Origin: an uncultured Holophagaceae bacterium
Lineage (GTDB): Bacteria > Acidobacteriota > Holophagae > Holophagales > Holophagaceae
Length of the DNA: 62,619 nucleotides
NCBI GenBank assembly: GCA_903857495.1
Contig: CAIOFF010000010.1
Span: forward strand, 1 to 62,619
Direction of reading: 5' to 3'
Positions 1 to 49,082 of the stretch are shown in pieces. The notes beneath the pieces were generated by a model, which worked only from the letters and a program-made list of their open reading frames with translations, did no database searches and was not told where the DNA came from. Position numbers and translations under genes: made by a program. Position 1 is the first letter of the stretch. The number at the start of each line of letters is the position of its first letter.

Positions 1-330
1 GCACGCTGCACCCGATCTTCAACCACCTGCTCAGTGTACTTGAGCGGACGCTCTTGGTGGGCCACAGCCTTCCGTCGCTCGGTTAACCGCTGTCTGAAAG
101 TGTACTTGAGCGGACGCTCTTGGTGGGCCACAGCAACAAACTCTCTCGGGTGGTGGCGCAGAAAGTGTACTTGAGCGGACGCTCTTGGTGGGCCACAGCC
201 ACCAGGGCGCTCGGGTCCACCGCGAAGCAGTGTACTTGAGCGGACGCTCTTGGTGGGCCACAGCTTGGCGGTCAGAGGGCACTTCACCCCCTCCAGTGTA
301 CTTGAGCGGACGCTCTTGGTGGGCCACAGC
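1..330. CRISPR. CRISPR array, partial: five 36-bp repeats, type II-like
   Basis: Five identical 36-bp repeats lie at 33-68, 99-134, 164-199, 229-264 and 295-330; each begins AGTGTACTTGAGC and ends GGTGGGCCACAGC. Spacers between them are 29-30 bp and all different. Bases 1-2 (GC) match the end of a further repeat and are followed by a 30-bp spacer (3-32), so the array continues left of the window. The repeat at 330 is not degenerate, and no more copies follow. The 36/30 geometry is that of type II arrays. Read on the minus strand the repeat begins GCTGTGG and ends TACACT, which resembles II-C repeats that start GTTGTAG and carry a -10-like box at the 3' end. No cas gene is in the window, so the type and direction are inferred. 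Confidence 0.93.
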
Positions 331-1017
331 TTCGGGGCTGGGCGGGCTCCTTGAACGGGCAAGGGCACTGCTCCCAGTCCCAAAGCCTCACAGGGACCCC
401 CCGCCCGTCGTCATCGATGCGCCGCGCACCTGTGCCCAGTGCGGCGGCATGATCCTGCGCCTGCCGCTGACCGCAATGGCCCGGTCCCCGCCGCTGGAGG
501 CCGCATGCATATAGGCCCCCCAGCAGACCATTACCCACGCCATTCCTTGCATCAAGGCAGGTCGGCGAAGCTCTGCCTGCACGGGGACCTGGTGGAGTGC
601 CTGGACCATCCTGCCCGCCCCAGACCCACGAACGGGCCTAGCGGACAAGCAGCTCAGGCTCCTCCCGCCGCTATGCCAGACCCGATTTCCCCATAACGGT
701 CAGTTCGGCCCTCGCCGCTACGGGCTTGTTCAACATCGCATTTCGCCGGTGGGCACCGCCGCGCCTACCCACACCATCAACCCGGTCCCGCCACCGACGA
801 AATGCTCACTGTTTTCGCCCAAGCCAATAACCAAAGGCAGCGCTGCGCCTGCCCAGCCGTTCGTCAGGTCCAGTCGCAGACGAAATGCTGAATATTCTAC
901 GCTACTGGTCTACCTATTAATAATGGCGGTGTCGCATCACCGGCAGAAAAAATCCGCCTAAATGTGTTTTATCTGAGAGAAATTAGCCATCAATCTGTAT
1001 ATAAAGAAGGAGAGAAG
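331..1017. other. Gene-free stretch beside the CRISPR array
   Basis: No supported gene was seen. Short open frames on both strands here have no recognisable motifs and no good ribosome binding site, and those left of 540 run into the CRISPR repeats. Composition changes from GC-rich (331-890) to AT-rich (about 890-1310). The stretch could hold a leader or tracrRNA if the array reads leftward. I looked for an anti-repeat and found only 7-base matches, near 640 and 750, which are too short to call. Confidence 0.5.
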
Positions 1018-1858: not shown

Positions 1859-3373
1859 ATGCCCAGGCGAGCAACAAGATCACATCAAGCACCATCGGCA
1901 GATATCTCTACGGTACTGGCCGAGAAATTCCAGGAAACCATGAGAAGGCTGTTCAGACCTTGCTTCCCCCAGGAGAGAACCTACGCCCGGTTTGCCGAGA
2001 TCATGATTTCCATCCTCGCAGGGGAGGGGCCGAAGACAATTACCTCGACCGTCTTCCTGCGCTCCAAGGACCAAGGCGACTGGTCTAACGACTACAAGGT
2101 GTTCTCGACCTCGCCGTGGGAACCTGAAGACCTGTTCAAGAGGGTCCTTGGGGCCACGATTCAATTTCTTCCAAATGAGAATGAGCCAATCGTTCTAGCA
2201 ATAGATGATACATGTCACTGGCGCTGGAGCAAGAAGGTTCCGGGAACGGCTTGGCACCACGATGCTCTTGGCCCGAAGTTCTTCGGCAAGGGTTCAGGGA
2301 TGCCGCCTTTAAAGTGGGGACATCAGATGCTTCATGCAGTCCTGATGATCCCTCCAGTACTAGGTTATGCCCCAACTGCGATTCCCGTGGCGTATGAACC
2401 AATCCTGGGCATACCCAAGAAGAAGAAAAAGAAAACCCAAGCCTCCGGAGAGCCAGTCAAGCGAGGCCGACCAAAGGGATTCAAGCCCTCGGAAACCCTC
2501 GTTCCAGACTCATCTATCGCCCAGATTAAAACCCCACCCAAGGCAACCGAGCAGGCCCTGGCGGTAATCAAGAGGGTGAGGAGTTGGCTTGATGATTTTG
2601 GCCTTCAGGAGAGAGATCTGATGGTTGTGGTAGACGCCAGTTACTGCAACGGGACCGTGCTCCGGAACCTTCCCAAAAGAACCGAAATCATAGGCCGCAC
2701 CAGGGAAGATGCCTGTCTCTACGCCCCAATTGCACAAAAGCAGGGTAAGCAGATTTATGGCGACAGGATCCCTACACCCAAACAAATATCGCAAGATACG
2801 AACATTCCTCATGAAACCAGGGTGTTCAAGTTTGGCGGTGATCAATACCAGTTCCGATGGAAGGAAGCCAATCCGGTGCTCTGGAAAAACGGATCCAAGA
2901 GCCGTCCCCTGCGGCTACTGGTAACTCTTCCCGTTCCTCATGGACGGCGTTCCAACCGGGGTTATCGAAAGTACGGCTACCTACTGACAACTAAACTGGA
3001 TGGGGATTCTGGCCCTTTGCTCCAAGCTTACCTCTGGCGGATTGAGATCGAGAACCTTCACCGAATCTTCAAGACTACCCTTGGAATGGGACAGACCCAG
3101 TGCCTTAGCTCAAGTCCCAAGATCTTCGCTTCCATTGCGGCTACCTGGGCTGTCTTCTCCCTAGTCAGCCGGAGTGTGGGTGGAGAGGTCCGGGGCGACC
3201 AACAACCCGTCCTCTCCAAATGGCAAGCCAACAAGAGGAGGTGGCGGGAGGAAACCCGGCTCAGACAGGGGAGACCCATGCCGAAGTACCGGCCTACCGC
3301 CATGGACAACATCACCATGCTGCGTTCTGGCCTGGGATTTCATTGGAAGAACGGGGTCCTGAGAAAAGCCTAA
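1859..3373 (+). mobile_element. IS4-superfamily DDE transposase
   Basis: 504 residues with a full DDE core: the first Asp in IVLAIDDTCHW (about residue 118), the second in LMVVVDASYCN (about 260), and the glutamate in a perfect Y-(2)-R-(3)-E-(6)-K signature (Y391, R394, E398, K405), which defines the IS4 superfamily. A basic stretch of six lysines near residue 190 and a GRPKG AT-hook-like motif lie between the first two Asp, probably an insertion domain. The ATG has GAGAGGAG just upstream. A strong terminator follows 20 bases after the stop. I could not define terminal inverted repeats or target duplications, so the element boundaries are unknown. The reading frame is intact, so the copy may be active. 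Confidence 0.85.
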
Positions 3374-3432: not shown

Positions 3433-3499
3433 CTGTCTATTATTGAATCAACTCTTGTATTTGCAGCAAAATATAGCCTAATTAATCGCCAAGCAGCAG

Positions 3500-3525
3500 A
3501 AAACCCGCGCCTAGCGCGGGTTTTT
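3500..3525 (-). terminator. Terminator hairpin ending the leftward structured RNA
   Basis: AAAACCCGCGC (3500-3510) and GCGCGGGTTTT (3514-3524) pair with a 3-base loop. Reading left on the minus strand it closes the structured segment to its right with a short T run. As a rightward terminator it would be redundant with the one at 3394-3432. Confidence 0.75.
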
Positions 3526-3530
3526 AGTTT

Positions 3531-3830
3531 GGGAGGTCCAAGGGGAATCGAAGTCACAGAATTGCCAGCTTTCGTCTTGGCCCGGGGAGACAGCCCGGGG
3601 GGCTGTCGGACCTGGGACAGAAAGCTGAGCAATTCGTGCGGCCGGAGCGTCACCTCGGAGGCGCAGCCGCAGAGGTGACGCGTAGGGATTCCCCGCTGCC
3701 CAATCTGCCAAGCCCAAAGGGGGGTCAACCCCTGTTCCCGCTGTGAGAGGGCGAAGAGAGCGCACCTGTGAGATGCCGAACCCCGGGGGCAGGTCAGCAC
3801 GGCCCGGCCGGTCTGACGCCCATTCCTTCA
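3531..3830 (-). ncRNA. Candidate structured RNA of unknown family
   Basis: There is no credible protein gene here, but nested perfect pairings exist. GGGGAATC (3542-3549) pairs with GATTCCCC (3687-3694) and encloses two arms. One is the 10-bp stem 3647-3656/3672-3681. The other is 3559-3573/3620-3635, which carries an inner hairpin at 3589-3607. A separate hairpin lies at 3787-3821. Read leftward, the segment ends 5-30 bases before a terminator hairpin (3500-3525), as a stable RNA gene would. I tested it by eye against tmRNA, RNase P RNA, SRP RNA and 6S RNA and did not find their conserved motifs. The 5' end and promoter are not defined; the AT-rich stretch at 3870-3910 is a likely promoter region. 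Strand is inferred from the terminator. Confidence 0.5.
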
Positions 3831-3959
3831 GGTTTTGAGCGGCCCTCCGATGAGAGACGAAGGTTGAGTGAAAGAGTTTGTATTTAATTTCTTTATCGTT
3901 TTTTTCTATTTGGACTTTCGAAATCCATGCGTCTCATGTGATTCCTCAAGGGACCAAGA

Positions 3960-31566: not shown

Positions 31567-31605
31567 GAATGAAAAAGGGTCCCAACCGGGACCCTTTTTC
31601 ATTCT
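31566..31605 (+). terminator. Terminator after the tRNA pair
   Basis: An 18-bp perfect stem (31566-31583 with 31588-31605) contains AAAAAGGGTCCC and GGGACCCTTTTT around an AACC loop. It starts at the last base of tRNA-Asp. Confidence 0.9.
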
Positions 31606-31619
31606 GTGGCGCGGGGCCG

Positions 31620-32000
31620 ACGGGGCTCGGACCCGCCCCGGCAACGCATGCGTTGCCGGGATCTAGGGTCGTGTGGGATTGCGGAGACAGGGCTAGATGC
31701 CCTGTCGGAGCAAGACCGGGGATCGAGCCCGAAGGGCGAAGAGCCCAGTTCGAGCCCCCGACCGAGTGGGTCGACAAGAGAGGCGGATGACGGCCGGGCT
31801 CGAACCCGCCCCGGCAACGCATGCGTTGCCGGGATCTAAGGTCGAGTGGGATTGCCCTCCCGTCGTAGAGGCCCTCCGGGGGAGGGCCGGAACAGGGAGG
31901 GCAAGACCGGCGGACGCGAGCCCAAAGGGCGAAGCGGATGCGCTGACTCGGGCTCCGCCCTCGCCCTTCGGGCGGCCATGACCTGCGGTCATGCCGTCCT
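31620..32000. repeat. Duplicated palindromic, tRNA T-arm-like intergenic repeats
   Basis: A unit of about 170 bp occurs twice. Each copy has a perfect 24-bp palindrome centred on GCATGC (31637-31660 and 31810-31833), preceded by a CTCG[G/A]ACCCGCCCC stretch that reads like the T arm of a tRNA on the minus strand. Each is followed by GGGATCTA and G[T/A]GTGGGATTGC. A second shared piece, GAGCCC[G/A]AAGGGCGAAG, occurs near 31727 and 31918. Open frames across it have no gene-like features. Nothing else was seen up to the SnoaL-like gene at 32084. Confidence 0.7.
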
Positions 32001-39233: not shown

Positions 39234-39265
39234 TCTAAGGATTCGATCTTTGGCAGTCCCCAGAA

Positions 39266-39365
39266 CGCTATCCAGAAAGGTGGAGGGAAAGGCCCTGTGA
39301 AACCTTGGCAACCTGCAAACGCAAGGTGCCAAATCCTGCCCCCGGTCTCCGGGGGGAAGATACCG
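39266..39365 (+). promoter_or_regulatory. SAM-I riboswitch (S-box)
   Basis: The conserved S-box core is present: CTATCCAGAAAGGTGGAGGGA, CCTGTGAAACCTTGGCAACC, AAGGTGCCAAATCCTGC, then a GC-rich P4-like hairpin and GAAGATA closing P1. It binds S-adenosylmethionine and turns off downstream genes. No terminator hairpin with T run was found before the ATG at 39433, so control may be at translation. It is closely related to the copy at 48980. Confidence 0.95.
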
Positions 39366-39432
39366 AACCGCAGGAGACTGACCTTCGACCCTCTGGAAGC
39401 TGCCCCAAGACTGCCTTTCCCCAGGCACAGCC

Positions 39433-48979: not shown

Positions 48980-49082
48980 CGAGTTATCCAGAAAGGTGGA
49001 GGGACGGGCCCTGTGAAACCTTGGCAACCTGCGAAAGCAAGGTGCCAATTCCTGCCGCGGAATACGCGGAGAGATGTCGAGC
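48980..49082 (+). promoter_or_regulatory. SAM-I riboswitch (S-box)
   Basis: Core elements are GAGTTATCCAGAAAGGTGGA, CCTGTGAAACCTTGGCAACC, AAGGTGCCAATTCCTGC and the GCGGAATACGCGG-GAGAT end. A clear terminator follows (49105-49142), so SAM probably causes early termination before metY. Confidence 0.96.

Follow-up and report, generated by a model that had tools for sequence, protein, structure and literature searches.

The window analyzed here is a stretch of 62,619 nucleotides from an uncultured Holophagaceae bacterium (contig CAIOFF010000010.1, assembly GCA_903857495.1). Between foreign DNA and a kinase gene it holds a gene-free segment of about 350 bp with several nested, perfect pairings, and the question raised by this locus is what kind of element the segment represents. 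A sequence-only reading had seen in it a structured RNA candidate, followed by a terminator hairpin on the minus strand and resembling a housekeeping RNA gene in length and terminator, and possibly also an integration target. We reach a different assignment, of which we are highly confident: the segment is one copy of a repeat in Holophagaceae that is linked to tRNA 3' ends and has the order tRNA–T–terminator–T'–body–T, where T is a direct and T' an inverted tRNA 3' end and the body consists of two stem-loops.

Architecture of the window copy

All pairings named in the sequence-only reading are present (Table 1). The closing stem P1 (GGGGAATC/GATTCCCC), the inner hairpin of P2 and the arms of P3 (10/10) lie where it had placed them, and the long arm 3559–3573/3620–3635 is paired save one bulged base. 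Folding of 3480–3890 gives z-scores of −5.90 for the minus strand and −4.43 for the plus strand, with 0/100 shuffles as good on either strand. The plus-strand fold of 3542–3694 (−92.3 kcal/mol) lies below those of 300/300 random 153-nt stretches of the contig, which were not matched for G+C.

Table 1. Parts of the window copy and its flanks, in window coordinates.
Feature	Position	Strand	Remark
Right end of the CRISPR-Cas9 island	3480–3499		20 bp also found on contig C16, where the island borders tRNA-Glu
tRNA-Glu(CTC) terminator hairpin	3500–3525		A and T runs at flanks
T', inverted tRNA-Glu 3' end (acceptor 3' strand, T-stem 3' strand, T-loop)	3528–3552	minus	
P1 left arm GGGGAATC, within T'	3542–3549	plus	helix 1 of the covariation analysis
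P2 stem-loop: CAC/GTG foot, bulge, GAATTGC/GCAATTC, inner hairpin 3589–3607	3555–3638	plus	helices 2–5
Junction and P3 stem-loop, arms 3647–3656/3672–3681, basal purine internal loop GGA/GTA	3639–3686	plus	helices 6–7
P1 right arm GATTCCCC, direct tRNA-Glu copy	3687–3694	plus	cognate matching of such arms
Second, decayed T', running on as inverted tRNA-Glu up to the anticodon loop	3713–3753	minus	
Downstream flank common to G029, including hairpin 3787–3821	3754–3900		sequence comparison

The window holds one full unit. Its body, between T' and GATTCCCC, spans 3553–3686, and a linker separates GATTCCCC from the second T'. We take GATTCCCC to begin at position 57 of the tRNA-Glu T-loop. In our reading of the sequences, the unit splits the T-loop after position 56 and before position 57, so that the first T restores the tRNA.

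A search of the same genome with the segment returned further places, three of which were read in detail. Contig C16 carries an intact tRNA-Glu(CTC), with the 3' end, terminator and inner part matching the window on either side of the insert, and on contigs C58 and C1 the insert sits behind tRNA-Ser genes. As judged by these matches, 3500–3753 is the former downstream sequence of tRNA-Glu(CTC): terminator, T', three-way-junction body, direct 3'-end copy and more inverted tRNA. The tRNA-Glu gene of the window copy now lies on another contig. The terminator hairpin reported at the edge of the segment does exist, and the terminator behind the intact tRNA-Glu(CTC) of this genome matches it. The separate hairpin farther downstream is likewise a real feature, which lies outside the unit and belongs to the flank shared with genome G029 (76.5% identity to window 3690–3900 over 213 columns).

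A covariance-model scan of the whole window found no Rfam family at gathering score in the segment. tmRNA, RNase P RNA, SRP RNA and 6S RNA, motifs of which had not been seen by eye either, are absent at gathering score and from the matches listed at E values up to 10, and ARAGORN found no tmRNA. Weak Rfam matches (Thr_leader and similar, E up to 10) all fell below gathering scores and lay mostly on terminator hairpins. Three ORFs overlap the segment; searched against Pfam at E up to 1, they gave no match. Two ordinary SAM riboswitches occur elsewhere in the window (39265–39366 and 48981–49080).

A repeat family in Geothrix and related genomes

Thirty-seven units were collected, 21 of which form alignment A2; not included are 7 units that are near-duplicates or have a shortened P2/P3 and 9, including the window copy, that carry the other P2 type. 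The covariance model R2 was built from A2, for which the fold of a single unit supplied the structure, and it replaced a first model, R1, whose automatic structure had lost most of P3. R2 finds the window copy, absent from the model, at 80.6 bits (E 9.3e-17). Matches occur in 42/47 genomes of the same genus, taken to be Geothrix (29/30 when only its good genomes are counted), in 57/77 genomes of the order, and in 15/30 of those outside Geothrix. An earlier pattern search had returned 26/37 same-genus genomes and 1/23 others, the latter judged to be chance; a scan of species genomes gave 28 stretches, namely 27 Geothrix or Holophagaceae records and one Verrucomicrobiales MAG.

With up to 17 model matches per genome, sometimes in tandem and located behind tRNAs and tmRNA, the segment is a repeat, and the housekeeping RNA gene first suspected is not supported. 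A single-copy housekeeping RNA is excluded by the further copies and the Rfam result. Carriage by phages or plasmids gained no support, as neither IMG/VR searched with one exact pattern of the element nor phage and plasmid records searched with one unit as query gave a match. No description of this element was found in the open-licence PMC literature.

Tandem units measure ~170–200 bp, and 24 of 89 loci contain two or more. By eye, a second repeat of roughly 60–130 bp is nested in the element at differing points; it mostly starts with GACTCGG.CC and ends with ATGGT (loci L018, L024, L028, L029, L031, L036, L037, L072–L074 and L079).

Covariation and the structured strand

The pairing is conserved in relatives, with covarying base pairs found in the alignments. 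In A2, 96.8% of cells pair and both sides change in 17/50 pairs (10.4 in shuffles; at most 5 in slid structures). The covariation score is 0.258, as compared with 0.109 shuffled and at most 0.058 slid, and the count of further pair types equals that of the shuffles (31 vs 31.0). Among 78 distinct rows that include other genera, in an alignment fitted to the model, both sides change in 48/50 pairs (at most 32 in slid structures).

The minus strand had been proposed as the RNA strand. Fold stability, pair counts and purine loops favor the plus strand instead, not decisively: (i) the plus strand gives the more stable fold in 108/119 matches, (ii) A2 contains 38 G·U (G·T) against 12 A·C, with 19 of the G·U contributed by one pair, and (iii) P3 has a symmetric GGA/GGA loop in 18/21 rows. 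The counterpart loop in P2 is GGA/GGA in 8/21 rows and consists of pairable triplets in 6/21 (e.g. CCG/CGG, CCC/GGG and TTC/GAA). The predicted folds and counts make plus more likely than minus to be the structured strand, the strand evidence being modest.

The covariation of the stems, the purine loop of P3 and the matches in nearly all good genomes of the genus argue for a functional tRNA-trailer RNA like RttR. According to this explanation, the terminator would be read through and the body released in tRNA processing, to act as a small RNA, a sponge or a processing signal.

Placement behind tRNA and tmRNA genes

The 96 loci searched are best matches or were hand-picked from match lists rather than drawn at random. 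After removal of overlaps with a better match and of identical contexts, 119 distinct matches remained, for which only upstream same-strand tRNAs were counted. Seventy-four of these begin 36–57 nt past the 3' end of a same-strand tRNA, with 15 anticodons represented: Ser (four), Gly, Cys, Gln, Glu (two), Asn, Val, Phe, His and Leu (two). A further 16 sit in arrays, 71–700 nt behind a same-strand tRNA. For the remaining 29 ARAGORN found no such tRNA; 11 of them follow an Rfam-confirmed tmRNA (L080, L161, L167 and L254), and the others are at locus edges or behind visible tRNA 3' halves, one being the window copy. In a count without a strand filter, the nearest tRNA, wherever one was found, always shared the strand of the element. 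The use of tRNAs of 15 anticodons and of tmRNA points to the T-arm and 3' end of the tRNA-like domain as the common target.

That 74/74 first units lie on the strand of their tRNA, in a count that took same-strand tRNAs only, is in keeping with a trailer RNA. The location of the element beyond a terminator speaks against one, as does its presence behind only some tRNAs: in the window genome the R2 element follows 6 tRNAs, plus the window copy, of 44 censused.

The tRNA census comprised these 44 tRNAs and, in genome G032, 32 tRNAs from 30 loci, of 49 places listed. By a strict score for mirror ends, 9/44 and 5/32 tRNAs, respectively, rank above 99% of a control that itself includes neighboring high-scoring tRNAs, and elements with a decayed T' behind Ser(CGA), Phe and Val score below. 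Mirror ends above control are also found in the window genome behind two Pro, two Met and one Arg tRNA. At 31567–31930 of the window, another mirror-tRNA repeat follows tRNA-Asp in two copies; its body is different (CCCGAAGGGCGAAG, a motif also in E. coli RtT).

The closing arms are tailored to the preceding gene. Compared against tRNAs for other amino acids in the set, T' agrees best with the tRNA it follows, at the 3' end, in 60/74 cases, ties in 8 and is worse in 6; the right arm matches its own tRNA best in 58/74, with 4 ties and 12 worse. Thus the T-loop TTCAAAT is answered by T' ATTTGAA (L077–L079), TTCGACT of tmRNA by AGTCGAA (L167), and TTCGATT of tRNA-Glu by AATCGAA (window). T' pairs with the next T and closes the three-way junction, so the closing stem consists of the neighboring tRNA's own sequence. 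T' is also PBS-like in that it often starts with TGG, complementary to the tRNA 3' end.

Copy number and inheritance

At the tRNA-Ser(GGA)–mobB site, G018 has 3 full units, G006 has 2 and G025 has 1, each followed by a partial copy, and G007 has the partial copy only (0); the series rests on four loci with tRNA-Ser beside mobB, among 26 genomes with a mobB match. tRNA-Cys carries the element in G018, G007, G024, G006 and G009, and in the window genome it has no T'. A range of 0–3 full units at one site is a further point against a trailer RNA, to which can be added the several copies that, by eye, are interrupted by another repeat.

A tree of the bodies of 106 units, in which 54/103 inner branches are unresolved and few columns give support, requires 53 changes of tRNA label (minimum 16; shuffled mean 75.7), i.e. 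the labels are clustered. Ser(gga) needs at least 7 changes on starred branches, and in G076 the bodies at three tRNA-Ser loci group together on a single starred branch (100). We read the tree as probably reflecting mostly inheritance in place, together with repeated transfer or conversion between tRNA loci.

The CRISPR-Cas9 island and other neighbors

Foreign DNA does end beside the segment, as had been suspected; it belongs to a type II CRISPR-Cas9 island, one end of which lies here. At the left edge of the window (1–347), a 35-bp CRISPR repeat is present on the plus strand in five exact copies. The end of contig C16 (L263, 1–4984) has eight exact minus-strand copies of the same repeat, of which the first begins at base 1, and C16 encodes a 1074-aa Cas9 (HNH_4, RuvC_III, Cas9_a), cas1 and cas2. 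In a genome search, CTGCTTGGCGATTAATT is exact at the window side and the C16 side only, and the 17-bp core of the island's right end has only two exact places in the genome. At the orthologous place in G029, an intact tRNA-Glu is directly upstream of the element. From these comparisons we infer a join across the two contigs and, in the window genome, insertion of the island between tRNA-Glu and the repeat that belongs to it. Inside the island there is also a DDE_5-type transposase gene (1859–3373), followed by a hairpin that has A and T runs on its sides.

Genomic islands that integrate at tRNAs by means of tyrosine integrases use the tRNA 3' end, which is restored by the insert. The units studied here differ from such islands in their length of ~170–200 bp, in the inverted tRNA end inside, and in a conserved body found at many tRNAs. 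The unit could nevertheless be attachment-site debris, i.e. the footprint of an integrative element that used the tRNA T-loop and lost its cargo. The direct repeats of the tRNA 3' end that flank the unit and the CRISPR-Cas9 island at the same tRNA-Glu would fit this explanation, and in G025 (contig 3; L154 with L268) a phage-type tyrosine integrase starts ~200 nt beyond an element-bearing tRNA-Glu 3' half. However, one conserved body at 15 anticodons and tmRNA would need a single integrase for all, and compensatory changes are unexpected of debris; we consider this origin improbable.

Comparison with RtT and other repeats

Units of the family described here stand in tandem behind a tRNA and contain its 3' end; the fold is opened by an inverted copy of that end and closed by a direct one. 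The same layout is found downstream of E. coli tyrV, where each of the tandem RtT (tyrT repeat) units closes with 19 nt that repeat the tRNA end directly (19/19) and begins its fold with this end inverted (score 29, as against at most 25 in 2000 shuffles). Rfam identifies these units in E. coli K-12 as RtT (RF00391), and the K-12 record lists rttR as a small RNA, which again favors a trailer RNA. Membership in the RtT family fails by model in both directions: RF00391 exceeds its 45-bit gathering score in 0/77 genomes (best 29.5; E. coli control positive), and R2 scores no more than 3.8 bits on the repeats of E. coli. The element is thus like RtT in layout, yet not a member by model; it also differs from RtT in the terminator between T and T' and in its use of 15 anticodons and tmRNA. 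Of the 8 best sub-threshold RF00391 places, 7 lie in loci without a tRNA gene. In Geothrix genomes, RtT matches below threshold (L272–L274) score 27–30 bits, and no tRNA gene was found in these loci.

RtT repeats are, to our knowledge, a tyrT-operon curiosity on whose role there is no agreement. Published work reports a tandem G·A motif for RtT (PMC7657543) and variation in RtT number, with a 175-bp VNTR at the rtT RNA (PMC2658671). The short palindrome 10 bp behind tRNAs of Methanopyrus kandleri, described in PMC5217627, is a different thing from the Holophagaceae element.

Movement as a REP/REPIN-like repeat by a Y1 (RAYT) transposase was also considered, and we find it very hard to credit. 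REP/REPIN and MITE-like bacterial repeats are short, palindromic and intergenic. The element shares with them stem-loops with a GGAG-like tetranucleotide at the flanks, which we take to resemble that of REP elements, but it has a fixed position behind tRNA-like genes and ends that match each host tRNA. Y1 transposases are present in 5/47 genomes, and none was found in the window genome or in the element-rich genomes G006, G009 and G018. On this ground a REP/RAYT repeat was rejected, and a Y1 transposase is ruled out as the general driver.

Proposed mechanism and implications

Based on these observations, we propose as the best overall explanation a repeat specific for tRNA 3' ends that is probably selfish and is kept as a folded strand, and we think it somewhat more likely than not. 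Towards a selfish or mobile mechanism as such we lean slightly. The repeat would be non-autonomous, with selection acting on the folded strand, either as read-through RNA of the tRNA strand or as single-stranded DNA. At a new site, a copy of the body would come to lie behind a different tRNA-like gene, from which the closing arms would then be rewritten, via template switching or copying from the tRNA 3' end. Tandem number would shift by recombination between T–terminator–T' repeats. In the window genome, the CRISPR-Cas9 island would later have split the array from tRNA-Glu.

Several observations weigh against a selfish repeat: the clustering of tRNA labels on the body tree suggests that much is inherited in place, near-universal presence in the good genomes of the genus suits a kept function equally well, the compensatory change is stronger than a decaying selfish repeat needs, and neither did the Y1 survey yield a driving enzyme nor the viral, phage and plasmid searches described above a copy of the element. 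We nevertheless favor the selfish tRNA-end repeat over the trailer RNA, which we consider rather unlikely, holding the former to be about twice as probable. A broader conjecture, which we regard as slightly more doubtful still, is that minimal selfish elements move as a folded single strand and rebuild their closing stem, in both orientations, from the 3' end of the recipient tRNA or tmRNA, by tRNA-primed reverse transcription or T-loop template switching; E. coli RtT would then be an independent instance.

The existence of a second family with the RtT layout, unrelated by covariance model and found at many tRNAs and tmRNA throughout a bacterial family, suggests that mirror tRNA ends are a recurrent device. 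Cultivated Geothrix species provide natural replicates, in that one site has 0, 1, 2 or 3 units and the same tRNA occurs with and without the element, and with these replicates the choice between a selfish element and a trailer RNA becomes testable.
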